The notes under the pieces are model-generated. The model searched no databases, was not told where the DNA came from, and saw only the letters and a list, made by a program, of their open reading frames with translations. From a virus, in the IMG/VR virus record IMGVR_UViG_3300035670_000360, positions 1-47,053 of that record: a stretch of 47,053 nucleotides of DNA. The stretch is one strand, 5' to 3'. The number at the start of each line of letters is the position of its first letter. Positions within the stretch are counted from its first letter, which is position 1. The position numbers were made by a program, and so were the translations under genes. Shown here one piece after another: positions 30,765-47,053 of this stretch.

Positions 30765-31970
30765 TTAAACCCTCTTATAGAAATATACTGAGCCTGTCGT
30801 GGTATTGAACGTCACAAAACAAGATTTGCCGCCCCATTGACCAACATATCGGAATCGCCCAAACGGGCCGCCCCCACCACCGCCTGCTGGTGACGTTGGT
30901 GTGACGGTATTACCACCTACCGGAGCCTCTGCTGTAACCGTCAATGCAATCGGATCGACAACATAGATGTTTGCACCACCGATCCAAGCAATGTTTTCGC
31001 CATTCGCAGCATCATAATCAAAACCCAATTCAGCAGTTCTAGCCACTGCGGAACCGCCACCCGTCCAAGTGTCGTTTTGTGAAACAACGCTTGGGGAATC
31101 AGGCGCGGATATGTCAATCAATGTGGGTTTTGACGACCCAAGAACAACAAGCAACTCATTGGCAACGTCATGCACAACGGTGCTCCAATGCGTTTCGAAA
31201 TCGCTAAAGTATGGCGCCGATGTGTACCAATTAAGCCTAAGCGTCGGCGTTGCTGGTGATGCCGGGTTGCGACTCCACAACCCGCCGCGCGTCACGATCC
31301 AGAATCTATTGTTTACAGAATCCCAGCAGGTCAGCAGATTTCCTGCGTAAACGTAATCATTACCGCCGCTTTGTGCGGTCAGTTCTGTGTATGTGTCAGT
31401 ATCTGGTGTATAAGACCACGCCGCGCCACCAAACAGCCCTGTGTCAACTCCAGAAGGACTGCCGCCGCCACGAAAAAACACATCGGACGTTTCAGAATAT
31501 GCCAAACCGCTGTACGTGTGATATGCACTTGGCCTACTTGTATCGTCTTGATACCCGTCAGGGGTTGAATAACTTGCCGACACATCCGGCCAGCTAACGC
31601 GCTCCCACGCCATAGCAGCGACATTGAAGCGATACCATTCGTTGCCGTGATAGTCCAAATGACCGCCACCGTTTACATATAACGCTTTCCGTCGGTCGGA
31701 ATACACCGCTCCGGAGTATTTCGTTATCCCTGCAAACTGTGTGCTTCCGCTTAGCGCAGTCCACTCACCAGTAGTTAAGGGTGAATCTAACGACACGGTC
31801 GGATCAGGGCTTAACGTCGAAAGTGTATCCCCTGTATATTCGTACCATGTACCCGGAGTCATAGTAGTGAGTACATGATTAGCATAAGGATCAGTCTCAA
31901 CATACCTGTCAGTTACCTTCTTATCTGGTGACTGAGGTAGATCCTCTACTAATGGGAATACAAGGGTCAT
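30765..31970 (-). CDS. Tail protein with beta-propeller-like region; first gene of the late operon
   Basis: This 401-residue protein has an N-terminal segment (residues 1-60: VFPLVEDLPQSPDKKVTDRY, TPGTWYEYTGDTL) in the codon style of the phage core and a distal part with kelch- or propeller-like repeats (WSYTPDTDTYTELTAQSGG, NNRFWIVTRGGLWSRNP, WIGGANIYVVDP), Gly-rich near the C-terminus. It is likely a receptor-binding tail protein. It is the first leftward gene after the control region, so late transcription begins with the adhesins. Confidence 0.7.
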   Translation of the reverse strand: MTLVFPLVEDLPQSPDKKVTDRYVETDPYANHVLTTMTPGTWYEYTGDTLSTLSPDPTVSLDSPLTTGEWTALSGSTQFAGITKYSGAVYSDRRKALYVNGGGHLDYHGNEWYRFNVAAMAWERVSWPDVSASYSTPDGYQDDTSRPSAYHTYSGLAYSETSDVFFRGGGSPSGVDTGLFGGAAWSYTPDTDTYTELTAQSGGNDYVYAGNLLTCWDSVNNRFWIVTRGGLWSRNPASPATPTLRLNWYTSAPYFSDFETHWSTVVHDVANELLVVLGSSKPTLIDISAPDSPSVVSQNDTWTGGGSAVARTAELGFDYDAANGENIAWIGGANIYVVDPIALTVTAEAPVGGNTVTPTSPAGGGGGGPFGRFRYVGQWGGKSCFVTFNTTTGSVYFYKRV

Positions 31971-32062
31971 TAGGTTATCCTTGGTGTATAATGTAAGTAC
32001 TTGTTACGATTTACCTACAGTTATAAACATATGTAGATAATATTAATCATATATTATTATAA

Positions 32063-32078
32063 AGGCGCGAGAGCGCCT
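32063..32078 (-). terminator. GC hairpin in the late-operon leader (attenuator or terminator)
   Basis: AGGCGC-GAGA-GCGCCT is a perfect 6-bp stem. On the minus strand it is followed by TTTATAATAATATA, a weak U-rich tract, so it could stop or attenuate leftward transcripts about 90 bp before the first late gene, or mark the upstream end of the late promoter region. On the plus strand no U-tract follows. Confidence 0.45.
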
Positions 32079-32088
32079 CTATGGGGTA

Positions 32089-32208
32089 ACCATTCGTGTC
32101 AGAATCTTTGATTCGTTACCGAATGTAGTACCAATGTTTCATTGGTGTTCTAATGAATTTATTTTAGCATATTTTTCACAAAAAGTAAAATATATGTACC
32201 ATTCGTGT
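32089..32208. repeat. Two exact 11-bp direct repeats ACCATTCGTGT
   Basis: Copies at 32089-32099 and 32198-32208, 109 bp apart, in otherwise AT-rich leader DNA of the late operon. A partial copy (ACCATTCG) occurs near 32600. They could be operator or promoter elements for the leftward arm; no -35/-10 pair is convincing. Confidence 0.5.
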
Positions 32209-32314
32209 ACTAAGTAGCTGATATGTAACACATGGGTGTCCGCAAGGAGTGCCACAAAAATTGCCTAGAAATTTCCGAGGGGTTAAATGCAGGTACAAAG
32301 ACCCCCACACCCCC

Positions 32315-32462
32315 GGGTACACCCACAGGCACACCCGTGTGTACGCATGTGTACGCACAGGCACACGTGTGCACAGGGGTACACACGCGAGCACCCACGT
32401 ACGTGTGTACACACGGGTATACGCACGCGTACGCGTATGCACCCGTGTACGTACGCGTGTAG
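32315..32462. repeat. Alternating purine-pyrimidine, palindrome-dense block (Z-DNA/cruciform-prone)
   Basis: This block is built of GT/AC/GC/TA steps. Unbroken purine-pyrimidine alternation runs 32337-32359, 32397-32415, 32417-32442 and 32445-32461. Perfect palindromes include GCACACGTGTGC (32361-32372), CACGTACGTG (32397-32406), CGTGTGTACACACG (32402-32415), ACGCGTACGCGT (32425-32436) and GTACGTAC (32447-32454). No CDS explains it. Such DNA adopts Z-form or extrudes cruciforms under negative supercoiling. Confidence 0.8.
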
Positions 32463-32465
32463 CAT

Positions 32466-32479
32466 TAGGGTTAACCCTA
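32466..32479. repeat. 14-bp perfect palindrome TAGGGTTAACCCTA
   Basis: Sits four bases beyond the alternating purine-pyrimidine block. The core GGTTAACC recurs in the ATTGGTTAACC boxes at 32546, 38655 and 38730, so it may be a related protein-binding site. Confidence 0.6.
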
Positions 32480-32545
32480 GTGTCTCCAATATGCGACAGC
32501 ATTGTTGTAAATTTACCACACCATACTCCCTCACTCCCTTGCTCC

Positions 32546-32559
32546 ATTGGTTAACCCAT
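32546..32559. promoter_or_regulatory. ATTGGTTAACCCAT box
   Basis: One mismatch from the perfect palindrome ATTGGTTAACCAAT at 38730-38743. Three such boxes exist in the two main non-coding segments, suggesting a common DNA-binding protein. Confidence 0.5.
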
Positions 32560-32714
32560 TGATTACCCGCATGATCCATATGAATTCCCTTATATACACC
32601 ATTCGATCCGTACTGGTTAAAATCACAGTATGCCCTAGAACGCATTTAAACGCGTTTTAAGCCGCTTTACCTGCTACCCGCTACCCTTGCCTTGGTTCCC
32701 TTGCGAACTCGATT

Positions 32715-32785
32715 TGGCACACATCTTGCATACTTTGCACTGGCATACTACTTGCATACATTGCACACTTGGCACACATCTTGCT
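32715..32785 (+). promoter_or_regulatory. Three tandem sigma-54 promoter-like repeats
   Basis: TGGCAC-ACATC-TTGCA (32715-32730), TGGCAT-ACTAC-TTGCA (32741-32756) and TGGCAC-ACATC-TTGCT (32770-32785) each match the RpoN pattern TGGCAC-N5-TTGCW with the invariant GG and GC ten bases apart; the middle copy has one change. They are also direct repeats of 26-29 bp with TTGCATACWTTGCAC between. Reading is rightward, toward the structured RNA and early genes. They may instead be iterons for a replication or regulatory protein; the exact consensus fit is what favours sigma-54. Confidence 0.5.
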
Positions 32786-32887
32786 ATTCGCGCATACATG
32801 CGGTTCATTCATGTTCGCGTACAGAACACTGTATATCCATCCAGTCATTCGGAATACTTTACACTCAGAACCCGCATAAACACTGGT

Positions 32888-32995
32888 ATCCAGTACTTTA
32901 TACAGTGGTTTCACTGTCGATTATCTTTACACCGCTAACCCGCATGGTTCCTAGCATCCAGTGGTTTATACAGTAGTTTACTGTCGGTTTTCTTT
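32888..32995. repeat. Duplicated ~40-bp element with compensated hairpin
   Basis: Copies at 32888-32928 and 32956-32995 share ATCCAG, TTTATACAGT and ACTGTCG blocks. Each contains a 6-bp hairpin: ACAGTG-GTTT-CACTGT (32902-32917) and ACAGTA-GTT-TACTGT (32970-32984). The closing pair changes G-C to A-T together, so pairing or dyad symmetry is kept. Shorter relatives (ATCCGTACAGTA at 33003, ATCCATACAGTA near 33096) follow. Confidence 0.65.
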
Positions 32996-33014
32996 CTGGT
33001 TATCCGTACAGTAC

Positions 33015-33080
33015 TGACAATTTTTGTCACCTTTTGACCAAATTTTGTCACATTCTGACACTTTTGGTCACTTTTGGCAC
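33015..33080. repeat. Phased array of six TTTTGNCAC-like boxes
   Basis: Boxes TTTTGTCAC, TTTTGACCA, TTTTGTCAC, TTCTGACAC, TTTTGGTCAC and TTTTGGCAC start at 33022, 33032, 33043, 33053, 33062 and 33072. The 9-11 bp spacing puts all on one face of the helix. The first also forms a dyad, TGACAA-TTT-TTGTCA. This looks like a cooperative binding array for a regulator or replication initiator. Confidence 0.65.
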
Positions 33081-33159
33081 ACAATACCACTGTTTATCCA
33101 TACAGTATTCGGCTATGCCATAAATTTATAGCCTTATAAATCAACAACTTACACACACT

Positions 33160-33175
33160 TGGCACCAACTCTGCA
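33160..33175 (+). promoter_or_regulatory. Sigma-54-like site before the structured RNA region
   Basis: TGGCAC-CAACT-CTGCA keeps the GG/GC spacing of RpoN promoters with one change (CTGC for TTGC). Transcription would start at about 33186, at the left edge of the stem-rich segment and ~590 bp before the first early gene. Confidence 0.4.
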
Positions 33176-33756
33176 CTATCCAGTTTGTCTTCGGACACTC
33201 GATGTAGAATCCCGAGTCAGGGCAGAGTGTTCAGGATAGGCCGCGAGTTGCTTAGAGCGCTGTATGTCGTTCAATCGTGGTAACTATCCAGCGTGTGAGT
33301 GTGTACACGCCTTGATGATTGGATGCCACGGCTATAACCAATCAAATACAGGTCGATACCGTTTAAGCCGTTTCGGTACACACTCGCAAGTTAGATACCC
33401 GACCATGGGTTCACGGTTTACTTGTGTCCGTGAAAATGGCGTCACCCCGTGCGTAGTACTGGGAACCAATCACAAGACTAGCAGCCAAGGTGCGCATGGT
33501 TCGTCCGGTTTTCATAACGGATGCAACGTAGCGTGACCAAAAAAGCTAGGGAATTCCGCACCAGTAAAGGGGTTAAACTCCCCGTGCCGGGTGAATGGAG
33601 CCAAGGGAGCCCTGCAAACGTGCTCACCGAGAGAGATAGGCAAACCGTAAGGTTTGGTGAGTCTCAGGGTTAGTAACCCCGGAAAAATAAGGATAAACGC
33701 TTGCATGACAAAGCAAGCGCCTTATGATGCACACTCTTGCATGGTGTGAGAGTGTG
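33176..33756 (+). ncRNA. Candidate large structured non-coding RNA or long early leader
   Basis: About 580 nt with no credible ORF but many strong plus-strand stems: CTATCC/GGATAG (33176/33234) around GGACACTC/GAGTGTTC (33193/33225); a 13-bp long-range stem 33294-33306 with 33376-33388; inside it TGATTGG/CCAATCA (33316/33338); TTCACGG/CCGTGAA (33410/33428); GCAC+GGGG with CCCC+GTGC (33558-33587); CAAACC-GTAA-GGTTTG (33641-33656) with GNRA loop on CTCAC/GTGAG; a 13-bp stem at 33687-33725 with one bulge; CACACTCT/AGAGTGTG (33730-33756). Size and phage context recall ornate large RNAs such as GOLLD or ROOL, but I cannot assign a family. It may be a free RNA or part of the early mRNA leader. Confidence 0.55.
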
Positions 33757-33774
33757 AACTATAGGGGAAATATC

Positions 33775-34254
33775 ATGGCAACGAAATCTATCAAGACTCG
33801 CATCAATGACGTTGTGAAATCTGCATCTTCACAGCGCGTGAAGGTTCAGGAAATCGTGGATGAAGTAGGCGCAAGCCTCCCATCGGAAGCAGGGAACCTG
33901 TCCCTGCTATCCTACCTTGTCACCCGTCTGGGTGAATTGGGAAGCGTGCAGGCTGGCCGCTTGCGCGGTTATATCTTGCACCGGTGCGAAGGTACCGTAG
34001 TCTGGTCGGACAAGACTAGCGCATTCCAAAAGCGTGCCAAAGGAAGCGCGATACAGTGGGCAAGCCAATGCCCTGATATGTGGTACACATGGGAGAAAGA
34101 GCCCACAACTACCACCAAAAAAGTATCAATCGAGAAACGATTGATGAAACTATTGGAAGCCTGCCAAGGTGACGGCGTGGAAGTGACCGATCCACAATGG
34201 ATCGACAAGCTTCGCACCCTGCTAGGTATCAACCTAGAGGACACCGCAGAGTAG
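33775..34254 (+). CDS. First early gene: hypothetical protein (159 aa)
   Basis: ATG 33775 follows AGGGGA at ideal distance, directly downstream of the structured leader. The protein has a helical N-terminal part resembling a small winged-helix or HTH-like fold (RVKVQEIVDEVGASL; LLSYLVTRLGELGSVQAG RLRGY in two parts), a middle with WASQCPDMWYTWEKE and a C-terminal helical domain. As the first gene injected and expressed, followed by its own terminator, it may act in host takeover or regulation; that is inference from position. Confidence 0.75.
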   Translation: MATKSIKTRINDVVKSASSQRVKVQEIVDEVGASLPSEAGNLSLLSYLVTRLGELGSVQAGRLRGYILHRCEGTVVWSDKTSAFQKRAKGSAIQWASQCPDMWYTWEKEPTTTTKKVSIEKRLMKLLEACQGDGVEVTDPQWIDKLRTLLGINLEDTAE

Positions 34255-34261
34255 CACATAT

Positions 34262-34286
34262 GGCCCGCCTAGTGCGGGCCTTTCCT
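34262..34286 (+). terminator. Rho-independent terminator after the first early gene
   Basis: GGCCCGC-CTAGT-GCGGGCC forms a perfect 7-bp GC stem (34262-34280) followed by TTTCCTT. It separates the first early gene from the next operon, which must be reached by readthrough or a new promoter. Confidence 0.75.
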
Positions 34287-34334
34287 TATGGTAGTGGCTT
34301 TCAGTTGGAGAGTCACAATTATAAGGGGACTAAA

Positions 34335-43484: not shown

Positions 43485-43973
43485 ATGGGTACCTACGTAT
43501 TTGATATAGAAACAAACGGGTTGAACCCTGATCGTGTGTGGTGCGCAGTGTTCCTTGATGTGGAAACACAGGAGTTCAGAAAGTTCTACTCACCAGAAGG
43601 GTTCACAAGAGGGCCACTATCACACCTGCTAGTGAAGTTTGTTAACGAGGCAGAGTGTCTAATTGGGCATAACATACTTGGGTTCGACATCCCTGTATTA
43701 CAGGACGTTGTTGGTGTAGATGCTTTGAATGGAAGATTGGTGGACACATTGATATGGTCTACTATCTCCCGTAAGTGGCGCAACGATCACACACTAGAAG
43801 GCTATGGTGAAGAATATGGGAGACCAAAACCAAAGCATGAGGACTGGAGTAAGTACAGCGATGAGATGCTCCACCGATGTAGCGAAGACGTTCTCATCAA
43901 CTACGAACTGTGGAAATCCCTCTGCAAAGACACCATCAAGTGGCAAGGATACTCTCTCAAAGAGAGAGCTTAA
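43485..43973 (+). CDS. DNA polymerase I-type, 3'-5' exonuclease part (frameshifted from the polymerase part)
   Basis: GAGGTGA precedes ATG 43485. The 162 residues form the proofreading exonuclease of a T7-type family A polymerase: FDIETNGL (Exo I acids), LIGHNILGFDIPVL (Exo II) and HRCSEDV (Exo III Asp, with His five residues before it where T7 has Tyr four before). The frame ends at TAA 43971. Polymerase coding resumes at once in the +1 frame, so a whole enzyme needs a frameshift. Confidence 0.85.
   Translation: MGTYVFDIETNGLNPDRVWCAVFLDVETQEFRKFYSPEGFTRGPLSHLLVKFVNEAECLIGHNILGFDIPVLQDVVGVDALNGRLVDTLIWSTISRKWRNDHTLEGYGEEYGRPKPKHEDWSKYSDEMLHRCSEDVLINYELWKSLCKDTIKWQGYSLKERA
43952..43973 (+). 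promoter_or_regulatory. Putative +1 frameshift site / indel-prone hairpin in the DNA polymerase gene
   Basis: CTCTCTC-AAA-GAGAGAG is a perfect 7-bp inverted repeat directly before GCT TAA C. Dropping one base within it joins SLK to RELNIEKAL in the polymerase frame. The purine-rich SD-like GAGAGAG and weak stop context TAAC recall the RF2 frameshift arrangement, but dinucleotide repeats also favour sequencing or replication slippage. Confidence 0.5.
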
Positions 43974-43989
43974 CATTGAGAAGGCGTTA

Positions 43990-45360
43990 ATGCTTGAGTC
44001 CATGCTTGCTGATGTGATTCGTGATCAGTTCAAGCGTGGCTGGGAGATAGACATACAGCTACTGGATAGCCTTATTTCAACGCTAGAGGCCCGTAGTAAA
44101 GAGATCGAGGTAGAGGTGGTACCTACATTGCCGTCGGTACCAAAAGGGGCACCAAAGGCAACGGAGAAGGTATACAAGGCTAGTGGGGAATACACTCAGC
44201 TAGTTATCAAGTGGTTCCCAGTGGACTACATACTGGATCAATGTGTCGCTGGCCCGTTCACCAAGGTGCAATTCATTGAGTTCAACATTGGTAGCCATGA
44301 TCAGGTAAAGAAGTACCTGCTTGCTAATGGCTGGGTTCCTACCGAGTGGAACCGTAAGCGAGACGAGAATGGTAGGTGGCAGAACACTAGCCCCAAGATC
44401 ACAGAAGACTCATTGAAATCTGTTGAGCACCTTGGTGGTACGATGAAGCTCATCTCTGAGTACATAGTGTGTAACCACCGACTGTCTAACCTTAAGACTT
44501 GGAGGGAGAAAGTTGAAAAAGATTCTAGTGGGTACTATAAACTACATCATACAGCCAATACTGTTCATGCTCCCACAGCTAGAATGGCGCATCGAGTACT
44601 TGTCAACGTACCTAATGAAGACTCGTTCTTGGGTAAAGAAATGCGTCAGCTCTTTATTGCACCGGATGGGTATAAAGTAGTTGGTTGTGATGCCAAAGGT
44701 TGCCAGATGAGGATGCTTGCACACCACATCAAAGCAATCTGCGGTAGAGAGACCACGTTCGTAACCGCTGTTCTGCACGGTACCAAAGAGAACAACGATG
44801 ACGTACACTGCTTGACACAGAAGGAGGCAGGCTTAGCAAAGAGGTCTGAAGGTAAGACACTGAACTATGCTATCCTGTTTGGGCAGAGCGATCCAGCACT
44901 AGCCCGGAGTCTTGGGTGTACTGAACGTAGGGCCACGGCAATCAAAGCACAGTTCTTCAAGAAGATGCCAGAGTTAAAGCGTGTCATTGAGATACTAGAG
45001 GCACAGTGGCAGCGGTCTCACATTGATAAAAGCAGGAGGTTTATTGTTGGTCTGGATGGTAGACCAATCTTTTGTAACAGTAAGCACAAACTGGTTAACT
45101 ACCTTGTGCAATCGGACGAGGCTATCCTGATGAAGTACTTCTACTGCCTACTGTGGAATGCTCTACAGAGGGAGAGACTGGATGCTTACATTGTTTTATT
45201 CTACCATGACGAGGTGCAAATTGTAGCAAGAGAAGATCATGCTGAACGTGTTGCGGAACTTTCTGCTAAGCTGCTTGTCAAAGCAGGACAACTACTAGGG
45301 ATCACAGTACCAACAGAAGGTGATCCATCAATCGGTAACAACTGGCGAGAAACACACTAG
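43990..45360 (+). CDS. DNA polymerase I-type, polymerase domain (T7 gp5-like, second part)
   Basis: This frame encodes the palm, fingers and thumb of a T7-type polymerase. It is open well upstream of 43990, where an ATG follows GAGAAGG and could allow separate initiation (456 residues); fusion by frameshift from 43485 would give about 620. Motif A reads GCDAKGCQMRMLAHH, with Gln at the usual steric-gate Glu; motif B RSEGKTLNYAILFG keeps the Tyr of T7 Tyr526; motif C is FYHDEVQI. Replicates phage DNA with the helicase. It ends at TAG, so amber is a normal stop here. Confidence 0.85.
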   Translation: MLESMLADVIRDQFKRGWEIDIQLLDSLISTLEARSKEIEVEVVPTLPSVPKGAPKATEKVYKASGEYTQLVIKWFPVDYILDQCVAGPFTKVQFIEFNIGSHDQVKKYLLANGWVPTEWNRKRDENGRWQNTSPKITEDSLKSVEHLGGTMKLISEYIVCNHRLSNLKTWREKVEKDSSGYYKLHHTANTVHAPTARMAHRVLVNVPNEDSFLGKEMRQLFIAPDGYKVVGCDAKGCQMRMLAHHIKAICGRETTFVTAVLHGTKENNDDVHCLTQKEAGLAKRSEGKTLNYAILFGQSDPALARSLGCTERRATAIKAQFFKKMPELKRVIEILEAQWQRSHIDKSRRFIVGLDGRPIFCNSKHKLVNYLVQSDEAILMKYFYCLLWNALQRERLDAYIVLFYHDEVQIVAREDHAERVAELSAKLLVKAGQLLGITVPTEGDPSIGNNWRETH

Positions 45361-46768: not shown

Positions 46769-47053
46769 TGTTATAGTCTACCAGTGCGCTTTCGCTAGTC
46801 AGGGCGTTACGTATCTCCAGTTGGCAGAGGATTCTGAGGTGATTAACTTCACCTCGGAGTTCTTTCCAGAAGCTACAACAGAACTCCACTGGACTGCCAG
46901 CGTAGGCAACCTGCACACGTACATTGACATGACAGTTGAGGGTATCCTCAGGGCTGTCAAAGCCACAGACCACAAGTGCTACCTAACTGGAACTGGTAAC
47001 TTCAGGGAAAAGGTTGCTACTTGGGGTAAGTACAAGGGTGGTAGGGGTGCTAA
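46719..47053 (+). CDS. 5'-3' exonuclease (T7 gp6/FEN-like), N-terminal part, cut by contig end
   Basis: GTG 46719 follows TAGGAGAGA and a stop codon just before, so it is the best start. The product begins MAGNRKNYERIALIDCDVIV, with the IDCD metal motif of FEN-type nucleases, and runs into the window end. It is the missing 5' part of the gene at 1-713 and overlaps it as a second, slightly different allele from 46792 on. Confidence 0.9.
   Translation, partial: MAGNRKNYERIALIDCDVIVYQCAFASQGVTYLQLAEDSEVINFTSEFFPEATTELHWTASVGNLHTYIDMTVEGILRAVKATDHKCYLTGTGNFREKVATWGKYKGGRGA
46792..47053. repeat. Imperfect terminal repeat, right copy (pairs with 1-262)
   Basis: Ungapped match to 1-262 with 9 substitutions, all after the first 121 bases and eight of nine silent. 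See the left copy for interpretation. Confidence 0.9.

Follow-up and report, generated by a model that had tools for sequence, protein, structure and literature searches.

A large structured RNA segment ahead of the first early gene of a Zobellviridae-like phage: a candidate cis-acting early leader

Right from the onset of infection, phages that lack an RNA polymerase of their own have to direct the host enzyme within minutes. In phage HK022 a structured leader of the early transcript, the put RNA, acts in cis on RNA polymerase by means of two stems spanning tens of nucleotides (nt), and in phage lambda the order pL-nutL-N-tL1 places a leader site between an early promoter and the first gene and a terminator past that gene. 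The boxA element of ribosomal RNA (rRNA) leaders binds NusB/NusE and shields untranslated RNA from Rho in reporter tests, one of which carried a 567-bp noncoding 5' untranslated region insert (PMC4807359). Large ornate RNAs of another kind, GOLLD and ROOL, are phage-encoded, run to several hundred nt and contain many helices, their role being unknown (PMC12286853); an abundant ~800-nt non-coding RNA of vibriophage ICP1, a long transcribed stretch free of open reading frames, is likened to them by its authors (PMC7567579). The subject here is a segment of about 589 nt in the IMG/VR virus record IMGVR_UViG_3300035670_000360 (47,053 nt, analysed at full length and termed the window), which is predicted to fold into a large structured RNA directly before the first early gene (gene 1) of what is, judged from its sequence, a Zobellviridae-like phage.

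Compared with these systems, the locus combines features of several. It shares with GOLLD and ROOL the phage origin, the size and the wealth of helices, but the window RNA matches neither covariance model and is attached to the first early gene; GOLLD is frequently a neighbour of tRNA genes, whereas no tRNA genes were found in the window. ROOL forms a homo-oligomeric RNA cage. The RNA of ICP1 (which we take to be an unrelated phage) adjoins a lysis cluster and not the first early gene. The succession of early promoter, leader, gene 1, terminator and remaining early genes recalls the lambda arrangement, and the put RNA of HK022 is likened to the leader by role, with no sequence relation known. 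Related phages come closer to the rRNA and lambda elements: an rRNA-type boxA stands near the leader 5' end in Vibrio phages 172P1 and 1.208.B (perfect, 15/15 in each) and in ICP2 (near-perfect, 14/15, at 1375 in record L009, with a second boxA-like element ~270 nt later, at ~1632), but the window lacks one and its folded region is much larger. Similar, too, are the control regions of Zobellviridae (ICP2, RIO-1, HP1, Vibrio 172P1 and others), which likewise lie before an ICP2 p27-type gene and are non-coding and sense-structured, but whose sequences cannot be aligned to that of the window.

What computation yields at this locus is structure on the + strand, no recognisable gene, a layout of promoter element, leader, gene 1 and terminator, a location shared with relatives, and comparative support in three groups of those relatives. 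The central features are:

33139-33151, + strand: AATCAACAACTTA, a perfect match to the IHF consensus (WATCAANNNNTTR) and one of two + strand matches in 47 kb
33160-33175, + strand: sigma-54-type promoter-like element TGGCACCAACTCTGCA (GG-N10-GC), agreeing with the consensus at 10 of 12 positions; predicted start ~33186
33186-33774, + strand: untranslated leader RNA, large and structured (~589 nt), between the predicted start and the gene 1 start codon, assigned from sense folding and position
33775-34254, + strand: gene 1, 159 amino acids, homologue of ICP2 gene 27 (PHROG 14737, E 1e-6)
34262-34290, + strand: intrinsic terminator GGCCCGCCTAGTGCGGGCC TTTCC, 8 nt past the gene 1 stop codon

The account that we favour, tentatively, is that the first early transcript opens with a large, structured 5' leader acting in cis. 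Transcription, a start site, antitermination and translational gating are what we infer, as follows. Host RNA polymerase would start at the IHF/sigma-54-type element (33139-33175), and its first early transcript would begin with an untranslated, strongly folded leader of ~590 nt that is joined to gene 1. This leader would most likely act on the transcribing polymerase, in a role comparable to that of nut sites in lambda or put sites in HK022; alone, or aided by host Nus factors or the gene 1 protein, it would carry polymerase past Rho and past the terminator after gene 1, and such read-through would open the remaining early region. The 3' end of the leader may also gate translation of gene 1, since it is predicted to pair with the Shine-Dalgarno sequence. 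The original prediction, made for 33176-33756, had proposed either a free phage RNA or an unusually long regulatory leader: the large structured RNA stands, and the leader fits better than the free RNA because no terminator lies before gene 1 in the window and one follows it.

Folding of 33170-33770 gives a z-score of -4.93 against 20 dinucleotide shuffles, and folding of 33186-33770 gives -4.37, with none of 100 shuffles equally stable. Among 33 sampled 600-nt segments of the window the leader segment has the lowest energy (-216 kcal/mol), and its reverse strand, at -184 kcal/mol (z ~-0.75), is weaker by 32 kcal/mol. The z-score alone is not decisive, because several coding or repeat-rich segments of the window also score low. 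When the RNA is made to start at the predicted +1 (33186), many helices rise in probability from 0.3-0.4 to 0.8-0.95. All of the stems and repeats named in the original prediction are present at their reported positions, including a 13-bp stem (33294-33306/33376-33388; 13 pairs, one of them G-U) that proves to be part of a longer helix. The main helices (P, pairing probability) are:

33234-33239/33284-33289, + strand: GGATAG/CTATCC helix, P ~0.94-0.95 in an RNA starting at 33186
33240-33246/33275-33281, + strand: helix accompanying the GGATAG/CTATCC helix
33290-33306/33376-33392, + strand: helix of 16 pairs extending the 13-bp stem, mean pair probability 0.95
33316-33322/33338-33344, + strand: inner helix enclosed by the 16-bp helix, mean pair probability 0.96
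33639-33658, + strand: GNRA-capped hairpin CAAACC-GUAA-GGUUUG (motif at 33641-33656), P 0.93
33687-33725, + strand: bulged hairpin AUAAGG..CGCUUGC/GCAAGCG..CCUUAU; its outer pairing has P 0.08 and costs 1.6 kcal/mol to enforce
33720-33726/33760-33766 and 33730-33741/33745-33756, + strand: terminal nested hairpin, P 0.90-0.97

The segment CTATCC does occur at both 33176 and 33284, with GGATAG at 33234, and competition between the two copies had been suggested as a switch. This is not supported, because the first copy sits inside the promoter-like element and precedes the likely start, and because the 33176/33234 pairing has P 0.0 even when that copy is included. A CTATCC switch is therefore unlikely, and one around the Shine-Dalgarno sequence of gene 1 (AGGGG) is more plausible: its AGGG (33763-33766) is covered by the outer terminal helix, with an unpaired probability of 0.01-0.08, and the pairing of AUAAGG (33687-33692) with CCUUAU (33720-33725), which forms the outer part of the bulged hairpin, may serve as an anti-sequestor. 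Closure of the RNA ends by 33186-33191/33690-33695 (P 0.58) vanishes once 26 more nt are included and is not claimed.

As had been noted from the letters, the segment holds no credible open reading frame: the two longest frames (90 amino acids on the + strand, 64 on the - strand) match no PHROG. A coding role was rejected on this ground and on that of 1-, 4- and 8-nt indels in alignments of relatives, and homologous phages encode no conserved protein here. Identity with GOLLD or ROOL, which had been raised as a possibility, finds no support, the Rfam covariance models giving no match at the gathering score or at E up to 10. Across the 4227 Rfam families there is no riboswitch, intron or other family, apart from a chance microRNA match (E 1.3), and the RNAs of relatives at the same locus have no Rfam match either; a group I intron, suspected from GACTAG-like motifs, was discarded for want of a model match. 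No DNA homologue of the leader was found among the phages or plasmids searched, and close relatives, sought through the first gene, the polymerase or the third gene, were found neither in IMG/VR nor in GTDB contigs. The DNA pattern AACCGTGAGGTTATGAAT has a single match, in an apparent RNA phage contig, that is taken as chance.

Despite this lack of alignable sequence, the location is shared. A long non-coding stretch precedes the gene 1 family member in every examined record with the gene, namely Vibrio phages 172P1, 1.208.B, 275E43-1 and 1.293.O, ICP2 and its relatives, Pseudoalteromonas phages RIO-1 and HP1, PQ867850, PQ867853, and IMG/VR records L007 and L134; in about a dozen related phages the first early gene is preceded by 0.5-0.9 kb of non-coding RNA with structure in the sense direction. 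The gene 1 product is 20-28% identical to its relatives' proteins; no relative of solved structure was found for it, and its predicted structure is too poor to use (predicted local distance difference test score, pLDDT, 55). Over the 560 nt ahead of the gene, folding favours the sense strand over its complement by 6-46 kcal/mol in thirteen records, a bias that counts as supporting evidence only, because some controls from other phages are biased too, in either direction. ICP2 differs in detail, having a small gene 26 between the RNA and gene 27 and an intrinsic terminator (2159 in L009) at the RNA 3' end, before gene 26. A profile of the first gene matches none of 30 terminase relatives, in a search that included no positive control; nevertheless two of them, IMG/VR G019 and G017 (identical over this stretch), show the same layout, with a structured leader of ~770 nt before a first gene of an unrelated family. 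In 275E43-1 and 1.293.O the same early operon also contains a gene for a ProQ/FinO-domain protein, of RNA chaperone type (L005 3965-4363; L006 2033-2431).

Comparative support comes from three groups of these relatives. An alignment of four Vibrio phages, which comprise two pairs of relatives, has 97.2% of its cells paired (91.1% in shuffles), and 19 of its 100 pairs are changed on both sides, as against 10.1 ± 2.0 in shuffles (0/500) and 0-5 with partners slid; this covariation is good but not final, because the structure itself comes from that alignment, which contains only these four sequences. Sense and antisense score alike here (-4.5 and -4.9), and hence the Vibrio alignment does not decide the strand. 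In the ICP2 group (five sequences) alignment folding gives z -8.1 for sense and -3.4 for antisense against column shuffles, with 32 pair-keeping one-side changes on the sense strand and 10 on the antisense; for HP1, RIO-1 and PQ867853 the corresponding z-scores are -6.1 and -3.9. The covariation among homologues to which the original prediction had looked is seen in relatives at the same locus, the window RNA having no alignable homologue in the collections searched. Covariance models built from the Vibrio phages (R1) and from HP1/RIO-1/PQ867853 (R2) match their own members only, and neither the window nor each other; position and layout are therefore shared, and sequence is not. Common descent of the window RNA with those of its relatives is plausible. 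A weak R1 match (E 0.2) in Citrobacter phage CVT22 (L004 47046-47207, - strand), which lies at the corresponding place, upstream of and overlapping the first early gene, is a lead only.

The promoter in the window is a candidate of sigma-54/IHF type, at which IHF would bind 33139-33151. A GG/GC pair at 10-nt spacing within TGGCAC-N5-TTGC occurs at 33160, 32715, 32741 and 32770, that is, four times in the 1.8-kb control region; the + strand of the entire window would be expected to have ~0.9 such sites. Two further features lie upstream:

32715-32785, + strand: three tandem TGGCAYACWWCTTGCW elements (at 32715, 32741 and 32770), further sigma-54-type sites or operator repeats
33090-33105, strand not applicable: CTGTTTATCCATACAG, a LexA-like box that precedes the promoter-like element

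No sigma-70-like promoter was found on the + strand between 32202 and 34400, and downstream genes may therefore depend on read-through. The IMG/VR contig L007, whose first gene is homologous, has the same IHF and TGGCAC pair before its leader (74% identity over 46 nt). The pattern AAATCAAYRACTTACA-N3-6-TGGCAC occurs in 90 IMG/VR stretches, with less than one expected by chance on our estimate; because most of these differ in the downstream half, where they carry an extended -10-like TGCTATAT, a sigma-54 assignment is better founded for those that have a correctly spaced TGC. Eighty loci of the 90 stretches (L136-L215) combine the IHF consensus, TGGCACGAT and the extended -10-like TGCTATAT, mostly 60-100 nt before a small gene. 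Most of these phages have sigma-54-type elements (TGGCAY-N5-TTGCW) in their control regions, and nearly all of the elements point towards the early genes (L002 2476; L003 545; L005 2263; L006 34; L007 2054/2162/2450; L012 1431; L109 ~13325, - strand); as early phage promoters they would be unusual. G019 has a perfect sigma-54 consensus TGGCACGCTCTTTGCT, a sigma-70-like TTGACA-N16-TATCAT and a LexA-like box, and such boxes (CTGT-N8-ACAG), which may place early genes under SOS or operator control, lie near the promoter in G017 and L012 too, being found in or upstream of the early control region at L012 1458 and 2057 and at L127 15282. Perfect CRP sites occur at L002 2449 and 2720, L003 470, 518 and 734, L005 2425 and L006 197; one adjoins a conserved sigma-70-like TTGCAA-N16/17-TATAGT, which would drive the leader in Vibrio phages.

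For the group as a whole, the boxA elements of relatives, together with the Rho protection reported for boxA, put a cis role on RNA polymerase in the lead. The terminator after gene 1 is one of three + strand terminators of such strength in the 14-kb early region, and a terminator-like hairpin follows the gene by 10-50 nt in 172P1, 1.208.B, 275E43-1, 1.293.O, L134 and ICP2. Several points weigh against this account. The best boxA match in the window is 9/15, no better than chance, and most relatives have none, so that the folded RNA of the window must work otherwise (as HK022 put does) or its role differs. The leader is far longer than known put and nut sites; the terminator after gene 1 fits a plain single-gene unit equally well; in L215 and L168 a promoter of this type is followed by a short leader, and hence the RNA is not obligatory; and covariation on the window RNA itself is absent because the collections searched hold no alignable homologue.

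The main rival, which we consider unlikely, is an ornate RNA that acts in trans as GOLLD or ROOL might, processed or terminated from the early transcript and serving as a free particle or decoy. Size, helix richness and phage location recall GOLLD and ROOL (PMC12286853) and the ICP1 RNA (PMC7567579), and the ICP2 terminator at the RNA 3' end would fit a free RNA; the absence of an Rfam match, of window tRNAs and, in the window and most relatives, of a terminator before gene 1 speaks against it. Possible, though doubtful, is a leader that controls translation of gene 1, in which CCUUAU (33720-33725) has two alternative partners, the Shine-Dalgarno region (off) and AUAAGG (on), while the rest of the RNA sets the balance between them by sensing a ligand, a protein or temperature. 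The two pairings are indeed mutually exclusive and 1.6 kcal/mol apart, the Shine-Dalgarno pairing (P 0.90) leaving bases 33763-33766 more than 90% paired in the ensemble, and in helix 1 of the Vibrio consensus GGAUU beside the Shine-Dalgarno sequence pairs with AAUCC ~440 alignment columns upstream. But the evidence for gating in the window comes from a single sequence, no Rfam riboswitch is found, the leader is far larger than such a riboregulator needs, and G019 keeps a structured leader though its first gene is unrelated.

That the segment is merely an untranslated spacer, unusually rich in stems, whose structure is not selected in this phage, is improbable. A z-score of -4.4 is not extreme where other parts of the genome reach -5 to -8, the window sequence has neither alignable homologue nor covariation, and a few relatives have short leaders; chance, however, would have to account for a location, length range and strand bias common to about a dozen relatives, three groups of which have comparative support. 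Very improbable is a DNA element separating the divergent gene blocks, such as a replication origin or a site for packaging or partition, whose folding on one strand would be incidental. Divergent intergenic regions often hold origins, and repeats and palindromes abound in the upstream part (31970-33100), which can fold on either strand; yet the stability of the segment is strand-biased, the segment begins at a promoter-like element, and the ICP2 alignment scores better in the sense direction, where one-side changes also leave more pairs intact.

Returning to the cis-acting leader, the window likely holds a divergent example of a class of large, structured RNAs in early leaders that is defined by position, extends across the family and is undescribed in the open-access literature searched. 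A broader and still more tentative proposal is that Zobellviridae carry a fast-evolving, so far unrecognised class of large ornate RNAs in their early leaders, able to reprogram host RNA polymerase (or ribosomes) as infection begins, of which the window RNA, with its sigma-54/IHF-type promoter, would be a divergent member. If true, early takeover would have a new RNA route in a phage family to which the well-studied cholera phage ICP2 belongs, or else these leaders would form a new group of large phage RNAs that can be approached genetically, since gene 1 and its terminator offer a direct read-out.

The assignment of the window rests on its Zobellviridae-related portal, terminase, polymerase and primase-helicase. 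Its ends (1-262 and 46792-47053) form a direct repeat of 262 bp at 96.6% identity, which suggests terminal repeats or a near-complete genome. Late genes occupy the - strand from 6.0 to 32 kb and early genes the + strand from 33.8 kb, separated by a divergent non-coding control region (31971-33774, 1.8 kb) at whose early end the studied segment lies. Upstream of the late genes, 32320-32460 holds an alternating purine-pyrimidine tract (CGTGTGTACACAC...) with overlapping palindromes, and 31970-32530 folds strongly whichever strand is taken (z ~-8 and -6). The family A DNA polymerase is divided between overlapping frames, 43485-43973 (exonuclease part) and 43804-45360 (polymerase part), reflecting a frameshift, a sequencing error or a true split.
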